Source: a virus
Virus record (IMG/VR): IMGVR_UViG_3300035183_000460
Location: 48,563 to 112,562 of that record
Length of the DNA: 64,000 nucleotides
Strand: one strand, 5' to 3'
Every line of letters begins with the position of its first letter. The first letter of the stretch is position 1. Below the pieces are notes generated by a model. It saw only the letters and a program-made list of their open reading frames with translations. It had not been told where the DNA came from and did no database searches. This document shows positions 17,840 to 34,313 of the stretch, piece by piece. The translations under genes were made by a program, and so were the position numbers.

Positions 17840-18457
17840 ATGAAAAAAGTAGGACTCTCCATAGAAATGTCATATGATATAACTGATGCTGAAAAACAAC
17901 AGGCAGAAAAAGCTGTTTATGCATTTAAACAATCTCTAAAAGTTTTAAAACAAGCTAAAGATCATTTAAATATTATGCTTACTCCATTTAAAGATCATCC
18001 AGATATATCAGAAGATCAAATATTTAAATTTAGAGCAGCATTAAGGCGTTATCGTGATAAATCTATAGAAAATTTTAATAATTTTAAAATTATGGCATTC
18101 AAATGCATTACATTAATGCAAATGTTTTCTTTTGATACTCAAATTTATAAATTAATGAAATCATTTATTGCTTCGATTGAAAAATTAGAAATAGAGGTAA
18201 ATAAATTTGCAGACTTGTTTTCAAATTTAAAATCAAAAGAATTTGTATCAGATATTGTAAAAAGTATTGAGTCTATTAAGAAAGAATGCGACAATATTTA
18301 TAATATTGTTGATTCTCGTCTTATAAGTCATATTAGTACTAATATATTAGCTACTAATTGGGTAGATGAAGTTGGTAAAAAAATTAATAAATCAATAGAG
18401 TATAAAGCTCCATTGATTATTGATTTGTTTAATAAACACAATAATGAAAATAGTTAG
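17840..18457 (+). CDS. Hypothetical all-helical protein, 205 aa
   Basis: The protein consists of four or five long amphipathic helices with abundant Lys/Glu/Asn and a conserved-looking FDTQIYKLMKSFIASIEKLE centre. No membrane segment or enzymatic motif is visible. A 73-nt gap precedes it and a 124-nt AT-rich gap follows, so it stands alone. It could be an inner-capsid or core protein given its position before the protease-scaffold gene, but I do not recognise it. Confidence 0.45.
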   Translation: MKKVGLSIEMSYDITDAEKQQAEKAVYAFKQSLKVLKQAKDHLNIMLTPFKDHPDISEDQIFKFRAALRRYRDKSIENFNNFKIMAFKCITLMQMFSFDTQIYKLMKSFIASIEKLEIEVNKFADLFSNLKSKEFVSDIVKSIESIKKECDNIYNIVDSRLISHISTNILATNWVDEVGKKINKSIEYKAPLIIDLFNKHNNENS

Positions 18458-18581: not shown

Positions 18582-18743
18582 ATGTTTATTAAACATGGTG
18601 ATGGTAAAATAATCTCAGTTTTTAAAAAAGAAGATATTGACGAACAACAAAAAACAGCAATTAATGAAGTCGAAAGTGAAATAAAAAAAGAATCATATAT
18701 AGATCATAAAGATCTTAAAAGTAAAGAACAGAGGTTTAATTAA
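18582..18743 (+). CDS. Small protein, 53 aa, coupled to the protease-scaffold gene
   Basis: ATG 18582 follows the SD AAGGATATATA, and the frame reads MFIKHGDGKIISVFKKEDI onward to TAA 18741-18743. The last base of that stop is the first base of the next ATG, so it is probably translationally coupled to the protease. The product is very charged (Lys/Glu/Asp) and helical after a short beta hairpin. T4-like phages also carry tiny prohead-core genes just upstream of the head protease. Equivalence is inferred from position only. Confidence 0.6.
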   Translation: MFIKHGDGKIISVFKKEDIDEQQKTAINEVESEIKKESYIDHKDLKSKEQRFN

Positions 18744-21700
18744 TGCAATATGGATTTATTAAATTAGGTGAATGGCTAGAAGCTAGCAGAGTTGAAGAAT
18801 TTTCCTCAGTAGCTCCAATTATTGATGATTTTGTTGTTCAAGAACATTTTAAGAAGATAGCCGCAGGTTTGAAAACAATAGCTCCCAAAGCAGAGGATTT
18901 TTTATATTTTTCTGCTGTAATGATGCATGCCGCTGAAGCTAGCGCGCTTAATCCAGATGGCACACCAAAATTAACAGCAACTGGTGAGCCAGTTAAAGTT
19001 GGTTGGATTAAAGATAAAGGATCTTGGCGTTGGACTACAAATGATAAATCTATTAGACCATATAAAAATTCTAATGGAGACATCTTTCCAGAAGAAGAAT
19101 TAATAAAAGCCCATAGAAAATGGGTTGGTAAACCTCTTTGTGTCGATCATAAATCTGATTCTGTAGATCATGTAAGAGGTTTTATAGTTGATACTTATTA
19201 TGATCGTAATTTAAAACGTGTAGTTGCTTTATGTGCACTTGATAAACATAATTATCCTGAATTAGCTAGAAAAGTAGCAACAGGTTATTCAACATGTGTT
19301 TCTATGGGTACTGCAGTAGGTCAAGCTATTTGTTCTGATTGTGGTCAAGTAGCTAGAACTGAAAAAGATTTTTGTAATCATATGCGCAGTAAAACATGTT
19401 ATGGTGAAATTAATATTGATTTAAGTCCAATTGAATTATCAATTGTTGTTAATGGGGCAGATCCTCAGGCTAAAATTAAACACATTATTGCTGCGGCTAA
19501 TAATTTAAATAATTATGTTTCTTTAAAAGAAAAAGAATTAAACAAACTATCAGTTAATAATAATGCATATGAATTAATTAATATTAGAAAAGATTTAGAT
19601 GAAACTATAACAAAGTTGGCTAAATTGGAAGAAATTATATTAGAAGAAAAATTACAAAAAGATACTAATGATTTAGCATTAAATCAAACGGCTAGTACAG
19701 CAACGATGCAAGAAACTGATGTACCTAGCACAGATTTTAATATAGCTCCGCCAGCTCAAAGATTAGCATCTAAAGAAAAAGATGCTTTAATTAAAGAATT
19801 TCAAGCTATTGCAACTTCATTAGAGGCAAAGGTTGCTGACATGAAAAAAAATTTGGATAAGTTATCAAATAATAATATTTTAAATAAAGAGGAACATATG
19901 TCTGAATCAAAGGATAATTTAAATAAACAAGCATTTTATCAAGGAACAGAAGAACCTACTCCAGGTCAAGCTAAATATACTAAAGATCCATTAAATGAAA
20001 AACTTCGTACTGATGGAGATAAACACATGAATCTTAATCCTAAAGATATTGGAGAAGTTGATGAAATTTTCCCTGGAGATCTAGAAAAGAAAAAAATGCT
20101 GGCTAGGGCTCAGGCTGAAGAACGCGCAATGCGTAGACAATATGCCATATCTAAAGCAAAAGAAGCTTTGGAAAAAAAGTCTTGGTTTCAAGGTGGTGGT
20201 GGCGTTAATGAACCAACTCCTGGTAAAACAAAATATACACCTGATAAAATGAATGAAGATTTGCGTGAAAAATCTGATAAGCAAATGGTTGGCAAAAAAC
20301 CTTTCCCAGGTGTCGGAGATGTAGATGATATGTATCCGAATGATAGAAAAGTTAAAGAGCCACTTAAGAGAGCTTCATTAAGGGCACGATTCGTTAAGGC
20401 TGCTAATAAAGATGGCACTCAAAATCTTGGTGATAGTGCATGGGAAGTTTATTTGGGTGACGAATTATTACTTACTGCTTCCGTATCTGATCTTTCTGGT
20501 CAACGTGCAGAATTACTATATGATACTATTGCTACAAAAGATTTTGGTAGCAAATTAATTGAAAAGATAAAAGTGTTTGGTGCTGATAAAGTTGCTAAAA
20601 TGTACAAAATTGCACAAGATGTTGCTCCAGGTACTGCAGCACAAAACGTAGCTCCAGCACAAAACGCAGCTCCAGCACAAGTTACACCTCCAAATCCTAA
20701 TGTAGTTCCAGCTAAAGATGCTGTTCAGACACCTGATGCAACTCAAACATCAAGTACTGATGCAACTACAGATGCTGGTTCAGCAAAAGGTGATCCAAAA
20801 GAAACAGTTAAAGATTTAATGAATAAGACAGTAGATGTAGTATCTGATCTTAAAGAATCAGTTGATGCATTAATTGGTGAGCAATCTGAAATGGGTGATT
20901 TGGGAGAGTTGGGCAAATCTGCTTCAGATACCAATACTGCTTTAAATAAGATGAGAGTTGAACTTAATGGCGCTCTTATTGATGCTATGAAAGAAACAAT
21001 TGCAGAATTAGAAGATCATCATGAAGAATTAAAGATGATTTATGCAATGTATGATAAAGGCACAATTAGTTCGTCAAATGATGAATTTGTTAAATCTATT
21101 GTTGAAGACGCTATAACTGACGCAAAAACTTCACTTGCTGACTCATTTAAATTAATGAGTGCGTTTGTTAAATATGCCCGTGGTACTGAGGCTATTGTAA
21201 AGCGTGCATCATTAGAGGCAGATTTAAATAAATTAGCAGAATCAAATATGGAATTAGAAGAATCAGATTTAGATGATTTAGATCGTGATAATAATGGAGA
21301 ATTAATGGATATGATAGAGTCTACCGATACAGATCTCTCTAATCTAAAAAAAGAAGTTGATTATGTAGATGATTCATCATCTGTTGATTCGTCTTCTTCT
21401 GATTCATCATCTGTTGATTCGTCTTCTTATGATTCATCATCTGTTGATTCATCTTCTTCTGATTCATCATCAGTTGATGATTCTTGTGATGAACAATCTG
21501 CAGATATGGTAGCTGTAGAAACACCATCTGGTAAAAAAGTAACAGTTCCACAAGGTTCTAAGGTTTCTGAAGCTTCATTTGATTTACAAACAAAAGAAGG
21601 CAGGGCATTATATAGAGCTAAATTAGCATCTGAAATGTTAGAAACAAGCCCTCATTTAAATGAAGCTCATCCAAAAGGTGGGTATACTACTGATTTAGAT

Positions 21701-22300
21701 GTTAAGCCAAGTGGCGATTTAGCTAAGGTTGAAGATCTTAATGAACAACATGATGCTATGATGGATGTTGCAACTGCTCCTCCAAAAGTACGTAAAGAAG
21801 CAGAAGCAATTCAACAATTAATTGTTGAAGGCAAGCTTGATCCAAATGAAGTAGATGCATTAGTTGCAGAAGGTCTTGATAAAGACGCTGTTGCTTATTG
21901 GAAGAAATTCTATGGTCAAGTCGGTTCTGAAGGATCAGAATTCGCTGCTGAATTAGTTAAAGAGCATGCTAAGGCAAAAGCACAAGAAGAAATGGAAGCT
22001 TATAAAGTTAAGCTTGCTAGAGCTTATGAATTAACCTATGATATGGTTGATCGTGGACTATGCGCTCGTGATAGATCAGCCATTACTGCTCAAGTTAACG
22101 AAATTATGAAATTTAACGATGAAGGATTTGAATCACTTAAACGTGTGGTTTCAAGACATAATTTAGTTAAAGAGGCTGGTCATGTACCGCAAGTTGGATT
22201 AATTGGTTCTAGCGAATCCGTTGCCGCTAAAGTTGAATCAGATAATTTATTTGAACAATTAAATGCCGCGTTTTCAAAATCAACAAAGAGATTGTTTTAA
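18743..22300 (+). CDS. Prohead protease fused to scaffold-like region, 1185 aa
   Basis: The N-terminal domain (about 1-250) looks like a head maturation protease. GKPLCVDHKSDSVDHVRGFI (about 129-148) supplies candidate catalytic His136. YSTCVSMGTAVG (about 182-193) supplies a Ser. NIDLSPIELSIVVNGADPQA (about 224-243) resembles the conserved C-terminal strand of these enzymes. A zinc-type insertion (C197, C200, C211, H213) sits between. From residue 386 the protein is low-complexity and helical. It has two copies of an EPTPG-containing repeat (about 398-455 and 480-540), a beta-alpha domain (AWEVYLGDELLLTASVSDLS), Ala/Pro linkers, a Ser/Asp repeat and a conserved-looking helical C-terminus with AHPKGG at about 976. 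It probably supplies both scaffold and protease for prohead assembly. Confidence 0.75.
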   Translation: MQYGFIKLGEWLEASRVEEFSSVAPIIDDFVVQEHFKKIAAGLKTIAPKAEDFLYFSAVMMHAAEASALNPDGTPKLTATGEPVKVGWIKDKGSWRWTTNDKSIRPYKNSNGDIFPEEELIKAHRKWVGKPLCVDHKSDSVDHVRGFIVDTYYDRNLKRVVALCALDKHNYPELARKVATGYSTCVSMGTAVGQAICSDCGQVARTEKDFCNHMRSKTCYGEINIDLSPIELSIVVNGADPQAKIKHIIAAANNLNNYVSLKEKELNKLSVNNNAYELINIRKDLDETITKLAKLEEIILEEKLQKDTNDLALNQTASTATMQETDVPSTDFNIAPPAQRLASKEKDALIKEFQAIATSLEAKVADMKKNLDKLSNNNILNKEEHMSESKDNLNKQAFYQGTEEPTPGQAKYTKDPLNEKLRTDGDKHMNLNPKDIGEVDEIFPGDLEKKKMLARAQAEERAMRRQYAISKAKEALEKKSWFQGGGGVNEPTPGKTKYTPDKMNEDLREKSDKQMVGKKPFPGVGDVDDMYPNDRKVKEPLKRASLRARFVKAANKDGTQNLGDSAWEVYLGDELLLTASVSDLSGQRAELLYDTIATKDFGSKLIEKIKVFGADKVAKMYKIAQDVAPGTAAQNVAPAQNAAPAQVTPPNPNVVPAKDAVQTPDATQTSSTDATTDAGSAKGDPKETVKDLMNKTVDVVSDLKESVDALIGEQSEMGDLGELGKSASDTNTALNKMRVELNGALIDAMKETIAELEDHHEELKMIYAMYDKGTISSSNDEFVKSIVEDAITDAKTSLADSFKLMSAFVKYARGTEAIVKRASLEADLNKLAESNMELEESDLDDLDRDNNGELMDMIESTDTDLSNLKKEVDYVDDSSSVDSSSSDSSSVDSSSYDSSSVDSSSSDSSSVDDSCDEQSADMVAVETPSGKKVTVPQGSKVSEASFDLQTKEGRALYRAKLASEMLETSPHLNEAHPKGGYTTDLDVKPSGDLAKVEDLNEQHDAMMDVATAPPKVRKEAEAIQQLIVEGKLDPNEVDALVAEGLDKDAVAYWKKFYGQVGSEGSEFAAELVKEHAKAKAQEEMEAYKVKLARAYELTYDMVDRGLCARDRSAITAQVNEIMKFNDEGFESLKRVVSRHNLVKEAGHVPQVGLIGSSESVAAKVESDNLFEQLNAAFSKSTKRLF
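19898..22300 (+). CDS. Nested in-frame product: scaffold protein from internal start, 800 aa
   Basis: Inside the protease gene the sequence AAAGAGGAACAT directly precedes an in-frame ATG at 19898 (codon 386). This is a Shine-Dalgarno as good as any gene start in the window, and it lies exactly at the boundary between the protease domain and the scaffold-like part. The resulting protein would begin MSESKDNLNKQAFYQG. The arrangement mirrors lambda C/Nu3 and other phages where the scaffold is made from an internal start in the protease gene. That analogy is known; the use of this start is inference. Confidence 0.6.
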   Translation: MSESKDNLNKQAFYQGTEEPTPGQAKYTKDPLNEKLRTDGDKHMNLNPKDIGEVDEIFPGDLEKKKMLARAQAEERAMRRQYAISKAKEALEKKSWFQGGGGVNEPTPGKTKYTPDKMNEDLREKSDKQMVGKKPFPGVGDVDDMYPNDRKVKEPLKRASLRARFVKAANKDGTQNLGDSAWEVYLGDELLLTASVSDLSGQRAELLYDTIATKDFGSKLIEKIKVFGADKVAKMYKIAQDVAPGTAAQNVAPAQNAAPAQVTPPNPNVVPAKDAVQTPDATQTSSTDATTDAGSAKGDPKETVKDLMNKTVDVVSDLKESVDALIGEQSEMGDLGELGKSASDTNTALNKMRVELNGALIDAMKETIAELEDHHEELKMIYAMYDKGTISSSNDEFVKSIVEDAITDAKTSLADSFKLMSAFVKYARGTEAIVKRASLEADLNKLAESNMELEESDLDDLDRDNNGELMDMIESTDTDLSNLKKEVDYVDDSSSVDSSSSDSSSVDSSSYDSSSVDSSSSDSSSVDDSCDEQSADMVAVETPSGKKVTVPQGSKVSEASFDLQTKEGRALYRAKLASEMLETSPHLNEAHPKGGYTTDLDVKPSGDLAKVEDLNEQHDAMMDVATAPPKVRKEAEAIQQLIVEGKLDPNEVDALVAEGLDKDAVAYWKKFYGQVGSEGSEFAAELVKEHAKAKAQEEMEAYKVKLARAYELTYDMVDRGLCARDRSAITAQVNEIMKFNDEGFESLKRVVSRHNLVKEAGHVPQVGLIGSSESVAAKVESDNLFEQLNAAFSKSTKRLF
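21371..21490 (+). repeat. Tandem 30-bp repeat x4 (DSSSVDSSSS) in the scaffold
   Basis: Four 30-bp units start at 21371, 21401, 21431 and 21461 and encode DSSSVDSSS followed by S or Y. The last copy diverges into a DDSCDEQ end. The units are nearly identical at the DNA level, so the array probably arose by recent slippage or unequal recombination. It forms a flexible acidic Ser/Asp linker between helical domains. Confidence 0.9.
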
Positions 22301-22315
22301 TAAGGGGCAATGAAT

Positions 22316-22951
22316 ATGAAAACAAAAAGCGTATCTGAATTAATAGCACTAGGAATGAACGACGTTCTTAATAGCGAAGAGATGTCAAATTTATTCAATA
22401 CTAATTATAAAACAGCCAAACATAAATGTGACTGTGAATGTGAATGTGAAATGGATCATGATAATTCTTTGGATAAAGAAGACTGTAGCATGTCATCTGT
22501 TGAAGAGTACGATGATGATTCTAAAGAAGTTGAAGCATATAATATTGCAATAGAAGGTTTGATAAAAGCATCGGCAGCACTTGATTATGTTGGATTTGAA
22601 AAGGGTGCGTTTGCTAGCCTTGGACTAGCTAGTTTGGTTGCAGAAGCAAAAAAGAAAAAACAAAAAGATAAGAAAGATAAAAAAGATAAACAAGATAAAA
22701 AAGATTCTACAAAATCTTTAAAAGATAGTGGTAAATCAATGAAAGATTCTACAAAATCTTTAAAAGATAGTGGTAAATCAATGAAAGATTCTACAAAATC
22801 TTTAAAAGATAGCGGTAAATCAATGAAAGATTCTACAAAATCTTCAAATTCAAAAGATAGCGGTAAATCAATGAATGATTCTACAAAATCTTCAAAAGAT
22901 AGTGTTAGATCAATGAAAGATGCTACGAAATATGTAAAAAAATATGTATAA
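22316..22951 (+). CDS. Cys-cluster protein with lysine-rich repeat tail, 211 aa
   Basis: Two in-frame ATGs exist (22310 and 22316). The AAGGGG Shine-Dalgarno at 22302-22307 is 2 nt from the first and 8 nt from the second, so MKTKSVSELIALGMN is the better start. A Cys cluster (HKCDCECECEMDH) follows at about 38-50 and may bind metal. Residues about 67-102 carry the recurrent two-helix module (SAALDYVGFEKGAFASLGLA). The C-terminal third is a basic repeat of DSTKSLKDSGKSMK. It lies 15 nt behind the scaffold gene and is presumably co-expressed as a DNA-binding core protein (inference). Confidence 0.6.
   Translation: MKTKSVSELIALGMNDVLNSEEMSNLFNTNYKTAKHKCDCECECEMDHDNSLDKEDCSMSSVEEYDDDSKEVEAYNIAIEGLIKASAALDYVGFEKGAFASLGLASLVAEAKKKKQKDKKDKKDKQDKKDSTKSLKDSGKSMKDSTKSLKDSGKSMKDSTKSLKDSGKSMKDSTKSSNSKDSGKSMNDSTKSSKDSVRSMKDATKYVKKYV
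22703..22918 (+). repeat. Tandem 42-bp repeat x5 (DSTKSLKDSGKSMK)
   Basis: Units of 42 bp start at 22703, 22745 and 22787. A 48-bp variant starts at 22829 and another 42-bp unit at 22877, followed by a degraded partial copy. The first three are almost identical in DNA. The encoded tail is Lys/Ser/Asp-rich, resembling basic histone-like tails, and could bind packaged DNA. Confidence 0.9.
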
Positions 22952-23064: not shown

Positions 23065-23460
23065 ATGACCGATAGATTGTTTAAATTGGGAAGCGTTGCA
23101 GATGAATTGATGACAAATATGGAAAAAGAGCTTTCCTCTATTCAGAAAGATAATAAAATAGCAAAAGTGTCAAAAGCTTTTGATTATTTAAATTATGCAG
23201 CAGAATTATTTGATGATGTTGGTCGTATTAAAGAAGCAGAAGTAATTACTAAATTAATTGAAAAAATGGCTAGTGATGATATTCCAGAAGTATTTGAAAT
23301 AAAAAGTTTGTTGCATGATACTGAAGAAAAATCATCTGAAGAACCTGAAGGTAAACTTTTAAAGTTCAAAAGTTTGTTACATAAAGAAAAGCCAAAGTCT
23401 CATCCAGGTGATGAGCTTTTTGAATTTGATGAAAAAGATTTTACTAAAAAAAAAGTATAG
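23065..23460 (+). CDS. Two-helix-module protein, 131 aa, ending at an A9 slippery run
   Basis: The helical N-terminal half contains a clear copy of the recurrent module (FDYLNYAAELFDDVGRIKEAEVITKLIEKMA, about 33-64, abbreviated here by its ends FDYLN and IEKMA). An acidic/basic tail follows, with a duplicated LLxFKSLLH-type segment (EIKSLLHD and LKFKSLLHK). The zero frame ends ACT AAA AAA AAA GTA TAG. The -1 frame opens exactly in the A-run and stays open for 66 codons after it, so a longer fusion product may be made. A good SD (AAGG) precedes ATG 23065. Confidence 0.6.
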   Translation: MTDRLFKLGSVADELMTNMEKELSSIQKDNKIAKVSKAFDYLNYAAELFDDVGRIKEAEVITKLIEKMASDDIPEVFEIKSLLHDTEEKSSEEPEGKLLKFKSLLHKEKPKSHPGDELFEFDEKDFTKKKV

Positions 23461-23654
23461 CTACTAATAAAAATAAAAATATTAATTTATCATCTAAGCA
23501 AATAATAAAAAATTTATTAGAAACAGGTAATTCATTTTATTATTATGCTGATGATAAAAATTATGCTGATTTATTAAATTCAGATATTGAAGATTGTATC
23601 GAAGTAAATAATTCAGATTCTTATTTAGATATGGAATTTGAGGACGAGATATAA
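23448..23654 (+). CDS. -1 frame extension of the preceding gene (candidate frameshift product)
   Basis: In the -1 frame a stop (TAA 23445-23447) is followed immediately by an open frame through AAA AAA AGT ATA GCT to TAA 23652-23654. The encoded extension starts with SIATNKNKNINLSSKQIIKN and ends with an acidic DMEFEDEI. Its composition looks coding. There is no ATG start or SD for it as an independent gene. The slippery heptamer A AAA AAA occupies 23448-23454 in the zero frame. A single missing A in the assembly (A9 for A10) would give the same picture. Confidence 0.5.
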   Translation, partial: KKSIATNKNKNINLSSKQIIKNLLETGNSFYYYADDKNYADLLNSDIEDCIEVNNSDSYLDMEFEDEI

Positions 23655-23699: not shown

Positions 23700-24386
23700 A
23701 TGCTTCGATTGGTTAATATTGGAAATTCTCAGCCAGTTAGTTTTATATGTGATCCAAGTGCTCAATTTGAGCCAGGAATGATTGCAGAATTAACAGTAAT
23801 AGGTAATCAGGTAATGGCAACGGTTTCTAAAGGAACCGCTCCAATTGGAGTAATTGATGATATTAGGACTAAAGCATTTTATGCAGTTTCCTGGAATGAA
23901 GTAGTAATTGTTCCTGCTACTGGAGTTATGAGTGGTGGTAAATTAGTTACTCCAGTAGATATTACTGCTAATTTAAAATATCCATATATTACAGCATCAA
24001 GCTTTGCTTCAACAGTTGATGTTAAATTAAATGCTATAAATGGAACTATTACTTTTATAGCTGGAACTGAACTTAATTTTGATGCGACTGGAAGCGGATC
24101 GCCAAATGCAATTAGAACTATTGTCAGTTATACTTATCAAGTTCCTAATATTCCAGGAGATGATAGCACCCAAGGTTCTGGACGCATTACAGTCTGGTAT
24201 CAACGAATGTTTTTTCAGACTAATAAATATGAAACTAATCAACAATATCCAGTTAAAGCAAATCTTTATGTTAGCGAAAATGGATTATTAACTACTAGAA
24301 AGCCTAGTAATATTCATCCTGCTGTTGCTATGGTTACTGCGCCACCTTCCCCAATTAATTCTTTTATTGAAGCGCTTTGGTTTTAA
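23700..24386 (+). CDS. Probable capsid decoration-type structural protein, 228 aa
   Basis: Beta-rich, with low charge and no disordered arms. The second half (GSGRITVWYQRMFFQ at about 159, then NLYVSENGLLTTRK at about 188, VAMVTAPPS and the C-terminal FIEALWF) parallels the decoration-type protein at 31236-31919. There GSGKVTCWDKPGLYAV, LLYATSSGLITPN and FKWAVFHF occur in the same order. The two seem distant paralogues. APIGVID at about 46 resembles turns in head-stabilising proteins. The start has an AAAAAGGTAAG SD. The role on the capsid surface is inferred. Confidence 0.5.
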   Translation: MLRLVNIGNSQPVSFICDPSAQFEPGMIAELTVIGNQVMATVSKGTAPIGVIDDIRTKAFYAVSWNEVVIVPATGVMSGGKLVTPVDITANLKYPYITASSFASTVDVKLNAINGTITFIAGTELNFDATGSGSPNAIRTIVSYTYQVPNIPGDDSTQGSGRITVWYQRMFFQTNKYETNQQYPVKANLYVSENGLLTTRKPSNIHPAVAMVTAPPSPINSFIEALWF

Positions 24387-31942: not shown

Positions 31943-31974
31943 AAAAAAGCCGGGATTTAATTCCCGGCTTTTTT
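31943..31974. terminator. Strong rho-independent terminator, bidirectional
   Basis: GCCGGGA (31949-31955) pairs with TCCCGGC (31962-31968), extended by A-run/T-run pairing on both sides. On the + strand a T-rich tract follows the stem. On the - strand the A-run gives a U-tract too, so it can also end the convergent homing-endonuclease gene. Confidence 0.92.
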
Positions 31975-33109
31975 ATTTTTTGTAGGTTTTAATTCTATGA
32001 ATCCAACTATAAAATTCATTCATTGACAAATTTCTTTTTATAAAATTACAAGATTTACAACATGGCACTACATTATTTTTATTGTGTGGCATAGTATAAT
32101 CTATACGGTTTAATAAATTATAATTAAATTTATAAATTTTATTTTTACCACGTTGAATGCAATTTGATGATTTTGAATTACAAAAATGACATGTCATTTG
32201 AGATAAATAAAAAAAGTCTTCTATTGATAAATCGCCATCATTATAATTTGATTTATAAATAAATTTAACTAAATTTTTGAAGCGTTTATCATGTAATTTG
32301 TTTAAATTAACATCATCATTTATATGATAATGTAAATTATTCTTAATATTTAATTTTTGAATAAATTTATAAAATTCTTCAACACTTTTTTTATTTTTTG
32401 CTCTACTACACAATAAACAACAAGATACGCAATTATCATTAATATATGGTTTATTGTTATTTAACTTATCTAATATATTATAAATAAAAGTTCCGTTGCT
32501 AATCGAATAATTCGATCCTTTATTATGCGCATATTTAAATAAATTAAATTTATTTGATGGTAATATACCACAGTAATAACATGGCATTTGTGATTTTTTA
32601 TAAAATTCTTCAAATGTTAATAGTGGTGATTTGCTTGTTACCCCATCTGCATAACAATAATTTTGCCAAATTCTTCTTGCTGATGCTATTTCTGGTTTAA
32701 ATTTTCTCCTCTTGTTTATGGCAATATTTATATTTTTTTTGTTTATTTCTTTTTTAAGACAACCACATGATTTCGTTTTTCCACTAATTAATCTATTAGA
32801 TTTAATATTTTTAATTGTTCCGCATACACATTTACATTCCCATAAACTAGATCCTAAATATTTTTCAGTAACTAATCTTCCAAAAATTTGTTTTGGTTTT
32901 ATTTTTAAACGCAAATGTTCTCTTAAACATCCACATGATTTAGTTCCACCACGTGTTAAATCGATTGTTTTAGCTAATATTTTTTTACCACATTCGCATA
33001 CACATATCCATGTGGTATATTTTTTATTAGTTTTGCTAATAATTGTTTTACCTTCTGAAACTACAGTTAATCTACCAAATTTTAAATTAGATAAATTTTG
33101 TTTTTTCAT
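31973..33109 (-). CDS. HNH-type homing endonuclease-like protein, 378 aa
   Basis: The N-terminus has two copies of a small zinc-binding repeat (W-x-C-x-C-x-C-G ... S-C-G-C-L, about 34-60 and 89-117), common in phage homing endonucleases. Two similar HNH-like nuclease regions follow. The first starts at PCYYCG (about 176) with CCLLCSRAKN at about 230; the second starts at TCHFCNSKSS (about 310) with NVVPCCKSCNFIKR near 347. The gene is antisense to all neighbours and lies between the decoration and capsid genes, the classic setting of a free-standing homing gene. It has no role in virion assembly. Confidence 0.82.
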   Translation of the reverse strand: MKKQNLSNLKFGRLTVVSEGKTIISKTNKKYTTWICVCECGKKILAKTIDLTRGGTKSCGCLREHLRLKIKPKQIFGRLVTEKYLGSSLWECKCVCGTIKNIKSNRLISGKTKSCGCLKKEINKKNINIAINKRRKFKPEIASARRIWQNYCYADGVTSKSPLLTFEEFYKKSQMPCYYCGILPSNKFNLFKYAHNKGSNYSISNGTFIYNILDKLNNNKPYINDNCVSCCLLCSRAKNKKSVEEFYKFIQKLNIKNNLHYHINDDVNLNKLHDKRFKNLVKFIYKSNYNDGDLSIEDFFYLSQMTCHFCNSKSSNCIQRGKNKIYKFNYNLLNRIDYTMPHNKNNVVPCCKSCNFIKRNLSMNEFYSWIHRIKTYKK

Positions 33110-33296: not shown

Positions 33297-34313
33297 ATGA
33301 GTTCAATGTTCAACAATAAAGGTGAACTTAATGCGTCATCATTAAAAGATGCATTACAGACACTTGTAAAATATGCTTCAATTCTTGAAGAAAATCAACC
33401 ATCTAATGTAGGTTTAGCTGGACAACCAGCTCTTTCTGATGAAAAGCGCGATGAGTTAATTTCTCGTGCTATTATGACTCAGGAAGGTAAAATAGCTTTA
33501 GCTCAAGCTATGGCAAACCCAATTCGTAGAAACTTGGATTATCATGGAATTGCTCGTAGAGCACTTGTAGTAGATCCATTACCTCAAGGCGCAATGCCAA
33601 CATACGATCGTGATATCGACGTAGCTGCTGTTGTTATTTCTAGCAATGGCACTGGTCCAGAAAGCCGCGTATTCGGTGAGCGCGTTGTTGTTCCTGAATT
33701 CGAAATCTTTTCTAACCCAACTGTACGTATTGCTGAAGTTAAACGTCGTAGATTTAATGTAATTGATCGTGCAGTTCAAAAGGCTCGCCAGGAAATTATG
33801 GCTCAAGAGGATGCAAACGTTTTTGCTGCTCTTGATGCTGCAGCCAGTGTTGAAAATACACTACAAGATGTATCAGACTTTGGTATGTTGAAGAAAGATC
33901 TTATAGAAATTAAGGCTCAAGTTGATCGTTGGGACTTAGTTACAACCAAATTCTTCATGAATATCAATGAGTTTAATGATATCTTAAAGTGGGGATCTGG
34001 TGGTGGACAAGGCGTTGGTGGTGGAGAAGTTGATCCAGTTACCATGCGCGAAGTTCTACAAACTGGATTATATGCTCGTATTTGGGGCGCTGATGTAATG
34101 GTTAGCAAGATTGTTCCTCCCGGAACTGTCTATGGATGCGCAGATCCTGAATTCGTAGGTGTAATGCCAGTTCGTCAGGATATTGAAGTTCTTCCAGCCG
34201 ATGAACCAAAACAGTTAAAATTAGGTTGGGTTGTGAGCGAAATAATTGGAATTGGAATCGTAAACCCACGCGGTGTTGCAGCTGGTCGTAAGAGTGTAGT
34301 AATCGGCAGCTAA
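33297..34313 (+). CDS. Major capsid protein, 338 aa
   Basis: The order is typical for HK97-fold phage capsid proteins. A helical N-terminal arm (about 1-75, rich in Glu/Ala/Leu) precedes the shell domain with DRDIDVAAVVISSNGTG (about 103-119), an E-loop/P-domain region (FGERVVVPEFEIFSNPTVRI), a spine helix (VIDRAVQKARQEIMAQEDAN) and a C-terminal A-domain ending PRGVAAGRKSVVIGS. Codons are richer in C-ending and GC-rich forms (CGC, TTC, AAC) than in neighbouring genes, fitting very high expression. The SD is AGGAG and a strong terminator follows. The N-terminal arm may be removed by the head protease (inference). Confidence 0.85.
   Translation: MSSMFNNKGELNASSLKDALQTLVKYASILEENQPSNVGLAGQPALSDEKRDELISRAIMTQEGKIALAQAMANPIRRNLDYHGIARRALVVDPLPQGAMPTYDRDIDVAAVVISSNGTGPESRVFGERVVVPEFEIFSNPTVRIAEVKRRRFNVIDRAVQKARQEIMAQEDANVFAALDAAASVENTLQDVSDFGMLKKDLIEIKAQVDRWDLVTTKFFMNINEFNDILKWGSGGGQGVGGGEVDPVTMREVLQTGLYARIWGADVMVSKIVPPGTVYGCADPEFVGVMPVRQDIEVLPADEPKQLKLGWVVSEIIGIGIVNPRGVAAGRKSVVIGS

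Follow-up and report, generated by a model that had tools for sequence, protein, structure and literature searches.

Poly-A tracts at which slippage yields different forms of a protein have been described in bacteria. In the secretion genes tssM1 of Citrobacter rodentium (A11) and tssM3 of Yersinia pseudotuberculosis, poly-A slippage leads to the long form in one species and to a truncated form in the other, and for tssM1 the slippage was proven at the RNA level by mass spectrometry of RT-PCR products (PMC4256274). The dnaX gene of Thermus thermophilus gives two products from a run of nine A's (A9), and for bacteria in which A9/T9 runs slip during transcription, avoidance of these runs has been taken to indicate such slippage (PMC1088944). 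The recoding of phage tail and head genes, as in the G/GT chaperones and the head-protein extensions of T3, A2 and PSA, has been described as ribosomal (PMC5009743), and transcriptional slippage has been proposed for a poly-A tract in the methyltransferase of Campylobacter phage CPt10 (PMC2853527). A search of the open-access literature turned up no account of transcriptional slippage being conserved in the head genes of DNA phages.

The gene investigated here lies in a 64,000-nucleotide stretch (the window) of a 112,562-base virus record. It resembles tssM1 and tssM3, which have no Shine-Dalgarno (SD) or structural stimulators, in having a poly-A tract near a stop codon and, if its in-frame A9 relatives are included, in two (putative) directions of use; those are bacterial secretion genes with proof from RNA, whereas the evidence for this phage head operon is comparative. 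With Thermus dnaX it shares the nine A's, two (putative) products from one gene and closely following stops in the other frames. In dnaX, however, the 0-frame encodes the long form and slippage gives the short one, as would be the case in the in-frame A9 relatives, whereas slippage in the window would give the long form. The G/GT, T3, A2 and PSA genes are likewise phage morphogenesis genes with a frameshifted C-terminal extension, with the direction indifferent among relatives, but they are ribosomal, have no A9 requirement and, for G/GT, belong to tail modules; no sequence relation to them was found. CPt10 is similar in that poly-A transcriptional slippage was put forward for a phage gene, but there it concerns a single apparent frameshift mutation in a methyltransferase, with conservation not reported. 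Taken together, our analysis indicates that the A9 run is probably a conserved, programmed slippage site in a giant-phage head operon, at which slipping of RNA polymerase would allow one gene to encode a short and a long protein.

The A9 run and the frame behind it

The 0-frame of the window gene ends ...GAT TTT ACT AAA AAA AAA GTA TAG (Table 1), and both the A9 run and the last six codons are present as given in the original prediction. The 131-aa product comprises an N-terminal, predicted helical domain (N; approximately residues 5-70; E about 5e-20 against an N-domain HMM) and a linker, and it ends one codon past the run. A TAA abutting the run closes the -1 frame to entry from upstream; behind it the frame is open over 23448-23651 (stop at 23652-23654), without any ATG, GTG or TTG before an ATG at 23631 and without an SD of its own. 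The original prediction of 66 codons lacking a start and SD behind a stop set against the A run was confirmed, and what it had called coding-like composition proved to be a conserved domain (EXT), as the window frame matched an HMM built from the window EXT and its relatives (E 7e-18) and the relative L031 directly by tblastn (E 4e-9). Being without a start codon, EXT is missed by gene callers and left unannotated. Past the last A of the run the extension amounts to 65-66 codons, which would bring the long product to 196 aa, and the predicted N-EXT junction peptide would span ...DFTKKKSIATNK.

The window, 29% GC in this region, contains five A9 runs on the plus strand and one T9. An A9 run is by itself unremarkable in such AT-rich DNA, and its significance comes from the relatives.

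Within the head module the gene follows terminase, portal and protease (18743) and precedes the major head protein (33297); it does not stand just before a tape measure gene in a tail module, where G/GT chaperones are encoded. This agrees with the original prediction, which had noted that the location is not that of a tail chaperone, and it points to a protein of the scaffold, the core or the head interior. Searches of Pfam, PHROGs and PDB sequences gave no convincing family match for N or EXT. A helical N domain is predicted, and EXT is acidic and poorly ordered, in a structure model of an N-EXT protein from a relative (N2-EXT of L008) that was of low confidence (pLDDT 64, pTM 0.28).

Three further features of the module were observed. 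The protease-like region of the 1185-aa protein is its N-terminal part, the protein also has a Ser/Asp-rich stretch, and its counterpart in Bacillus phage G, gp19, has about 300 aa. The gene at 22310 has low-complexity tandem repeats (KDSTKSLKDSGKSMKDS) towards its C-terminal end, at 22680-22930. A 378-aa cysteine-rich ORF, HNH-endonuclease-like by eye, is encoded on the minus strand (31973-33109) just before the major head protein and sits inside the plus-strand head module.

Table 1. Positions of the features discussed, in window coordinates or, where a relative is named, in those of its locus
Feature	Position	Strand	Remarks
Large terminase	9808		head module
Portal	11978		head module
1185-aa protein, N-terminal region head maturation protease-like	18743..22300	+	phrog_2774 2e-17, phrog_18299 6.5e-15
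Upstream gene	22310..22951	+	no A9 in window; homologues carry A9/A10 frame junctions
N1-type gene	23065..23460	+	131-aa short product; groups with the N1 paralogues of relatives
-1 frame TAA	23445..23447	+	abuts A9
A9 candidate slippage run	23446..23454	+	context T-A9-GTA-TAG
EXT, acidic C-terminal domain in -1 frame	23448..23654	+	conserved; no start codon near its 5' end
0-frame TAG stop	23458..23460	+	one codon after A9
Flanking 228-aa protein	23700..24386	+	conserved, up to 77% identity; anchor for relatives
Major head protein	33297..34313	+	phrog_2522 6.7e-77
Upstream-gene A9/A10 junctions in relatives	L032:4330, L082:14345, L225:2274, L255:1585, L258:2123, L273:1060, L200:11348, L020:14223, L065:14654

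Gene arrangements in related phages

A protein search with the 131-aa gene against viral contigs found no relatives, and two other proteins, the protease and the 228-aa flanking one, were therefore taken as anchors. The protease yielded 80 loci, several on contigs of 150-480 kb, and further scans led to 102 distinct loci with the flanking protein, all on metagenome contigs known from consensus sequence only, some of which may stem from overlapping assemblies. They belong to giant phages whose nearest isolate by the protease anchor, Bacillus phage G, is a distant relative (34% over 205 residues) with neither the N nor the EXT domain encoded in its head region. The flanking protein had no relative in bacterial or archaeal genomes or in isolated phages, and L004/L147, the nearest by protease (98%), does not extend as far as the A run.

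EXT was found throughout this group, in three arrangements. Tandem paralogues, a short N1 and an N2 fused in frame to EXT, are encoded at 69 of the 102 loci, mostly without an A run. Ten loci (the window, L005, L028, L031, L034, L050, L060, L082, L099 and L185) have a single N gene with EXT in the -1 frame behind A9 or A10, and seven distant ones encode N and EXT in frame in one gene; EXT was undetected in the remaining 16. At all ten split loci the run lies exactly at the junction and EXT is in -1, never in +1, including the A10 member L034. The other nine all have a T before the run and a -1 frame TAA directly at it, as in the window, and their 0-frame stops 0-3 codons past it. Both the A run and the open -1 frame that the original prediction had proposed to look for in relatives are thus kept, and this conserved junction supports, as probable, its suggestion of a short and a long protein from one gene. 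In N-domain trees the single N gene of the split loci groups with N1, and all ten fall together (SH-aLRT 94), so that the arrangement probably had one origin and was kept by selection, rather than arising in ten events. An independent case may perhaps be found in L132, one of the loci without detected EXT, where N1 and N2 are followed by A10 and a short -1 frame that is EXT-like by eye and below the EXT HMM threshold.

The lengths of the junction runs in the 76 fused loci were bimodal, with 3-7 A's in 62, eight in one and 9-10 in thirteen. In-frame A9/A10 runs occur at 14 fused loci, 13 of them at the junction and in all three codon phases, the other (L224) in the same linker 79 bases upstream of it. 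The alternative frames stop sooner at the in-frame A9 loci than at junctions without A9 (one-sided p = 0.0025 for -1 and 0.016 for +1, the loci not all being independent), and because these frames mostly stop early, slippage at the 14 loci would give a truncated N form. Relatives with an uninterrupted frame and no run, which the original prediction had named as evidence against itself, do exist, but they represent a different arrangement, either tandem paralogues or a distant single in-frame gene. Four of the seven distant N-EXT genes have no A run of eight or more at the junction. The existence of loci with only an in-frame N-EXT gene implies that not all relatives require the short form, and these distant loci are exceptions to a rule by which every relative would either duplicate or slip.

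Frame junctions in the upstream gene

Homologues of the upstream gene also carry A9/A10 runs (Table 1). In L032, L225, L082, L255, L258 and L273 the 0-frame ends at once after the run and a new -1 frame begins, the extensions of L032 and L225 being homologous by eye. The long frame is +1 in L200 and, with a very short extension, in L020, and in L065/L193 the gene continues in frame after A10; these +1 and in-frame cases are rarer than the -1 splits. Several junctions have the motif A9-GTAAGTAA, by which the two remaining frames are closed immediately behind the run, and the C-terminal extensions vary widely among homologues. The frame relation is thus -1 or 0 at the window gene and -1, +1 or 0 in the upstream gene.

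In addition, an apparent homologue of the window gene at 17840-18457 has an in-frame A9 near its 3' end, identically placed in L022 (9622) and L048 (1185), with the other frames stopping a few codons on; this is possibly a third slippage gene.

We lean slightly towards a broader reading of these junctions, namely that this giant DNA phage clade makes permanent use of polymerase slippage at A9/A10 for dual coding in two or more adjacent genes of the head operon, with the run kept, the frame relation drifting between -1, 0 and +1, and slippage interchanged with gene duplication as routes to a short and a long form of one protein.

Long A runs and the likely mechanism

Purifying selection acts on EXT in the -1 frame, in which identity at the three codon positions was 0.61/0.74/0.44. 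The nine A's at the split junctions never vary except to ten, and are never seven or eight, in lineages whose third codon positions are near saturation. In these phages AAA-AAA-AAA encodes 14 of 441 KKK tripeptides compared to about 111 expected, and 13 of the 14 are at A-run junctions (1 of 428 outside them). A codon-shuffle null over 319,132 codons from 795 other genes of the phages gave observed/expected ratios of 0.90 for A7, 0.60 for A8, 0.11 for A9, 0.00 for A10 or longer (none in coding sequence elsewhere vs 34 expected) and 0.18 for T8. Runs of nine or more A's were low in all codon phases, and A7 reached 0.86 of expectation where its first A fell on codon position 3, as in A AAA AAG. 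Among the loci compared, on both strands, 20 runs of A9 or longer fell in the 82 kb that immediately precede the flanking gene, and the other 983 kb had 8. The sequences themselves show the junction and its conservation, that EXT is coding, and that such runs are avoided elsewhere across the genomes. The avoidance could also in part reflect replicative hypermutability, which leaves the presence of runs at the junctions unexplained. In the coding regions of L004-L083 the sharp, phase-independent avoidance of A9+ and T8+ is usable as a genome-wide flag for recoding sites.

Three sequence features expected of a transcriptional slippage site, a homopolymer of about nine or more A/T, phase-independent avoidance elsewhere and conserved coding sequence in the shifted frame, are found here. 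Faithful transcripts would yield the 131-aa protein with the N domain, and stuttering of RNA polymerase on the nine A's, with one A gained (or two lost), would join the frames into a 196-aa N-KKK-EXT. The two products would be counterparts of the N1 and N2-EXT that most relatives make from tandem paralogous genes. We infer that slippage occurs, that it does so during transcription and that both products have a role in head assembly. The restriction of the window gene to -1 and 0 relations, never +1, counts against a transcriptional event.

The foremost competing explanation, which we regard as unlikely, is programmed -1 frameshifting by the ribosome at A AAA AAA G in the manner of dnaX or G/GT, with the first two A's incidental; it would suit the -1 relation of all split members at this gene. 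A AAA AAA, which the original prediction considered ideal for bacterial ribosomes, is indeed a usable heptamer in the correct 0-frame phase (23448-23454) with a stop one codon downstream; two upstream-gene members (L258 and L273) read A AAA AAG TAA in the 0-frame, and modest downstream folds occur in a few members (L185 z -3.7, L028 z -2.8). As the mechanism, however, the heptamer fits less well than RNA-polymerase slippage. It does not require AAA as the first codon, and would have let the flanking A's vary, yet nine or ten A's are kept in all members despite the saturated synonymous sites; A7 in the ribosomal phase is tolerated across the genomes, whereas A9 is avoided in any phase; and the frame relation varies, with +1 cases in the upstream gene. 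No SD-like element or fold common to the slippage sites was found at 17 sites (mean z -1.07, a few individual folds), and no stimulator was seen in the window (z -0.16, SD -0.9). RNA-polymerase slippage was ranked over a ribosomal event on account of the strict need for nine A's, the phase-independent A9 avoidance with near-normal A7 and the lack of shared ribosomal stimulators.

DNA-level phase variation, in which replication alters the length of the tract and EXT is thereby toggled on and off between virions, would suit the mutability of homopolymers this long and the avoidance of slippage-prone tracts elsewhere, but it is very improbable, as all ten split consensus sequences are in -1, whereas about one in three would be expected in frame if switching were random. 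Homopolymers are also error-prone in sequencing and assembly, yet a true A10 within a continuous gene is hardly credible when ten divergent contigs, including one with A10 (L034), have the same -1 relation and in none does N1 read through the run into EXT in one frame. Equally implausible is a separate EXT protein made by reinitiation or coupling at the 0-frame stop, which does lie at the start of the EXT frame, since the window lacks a start codon before 23631, the EXT frame of L082 has no ATG at all and the A9 would be left unexplained.

Biological significance

The recoding of phage structural genes is normally credited to ribosomes, and a conserved transcriptional version, if true, would add a layer of expression control. 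The locus provides a compact test case, as the mechanism at one short sequence is decidable by a single reporter series. If polymerase slippage does operate here, these phages would present a natural case in which gene duplication and slippage replace one another in serving a single need.
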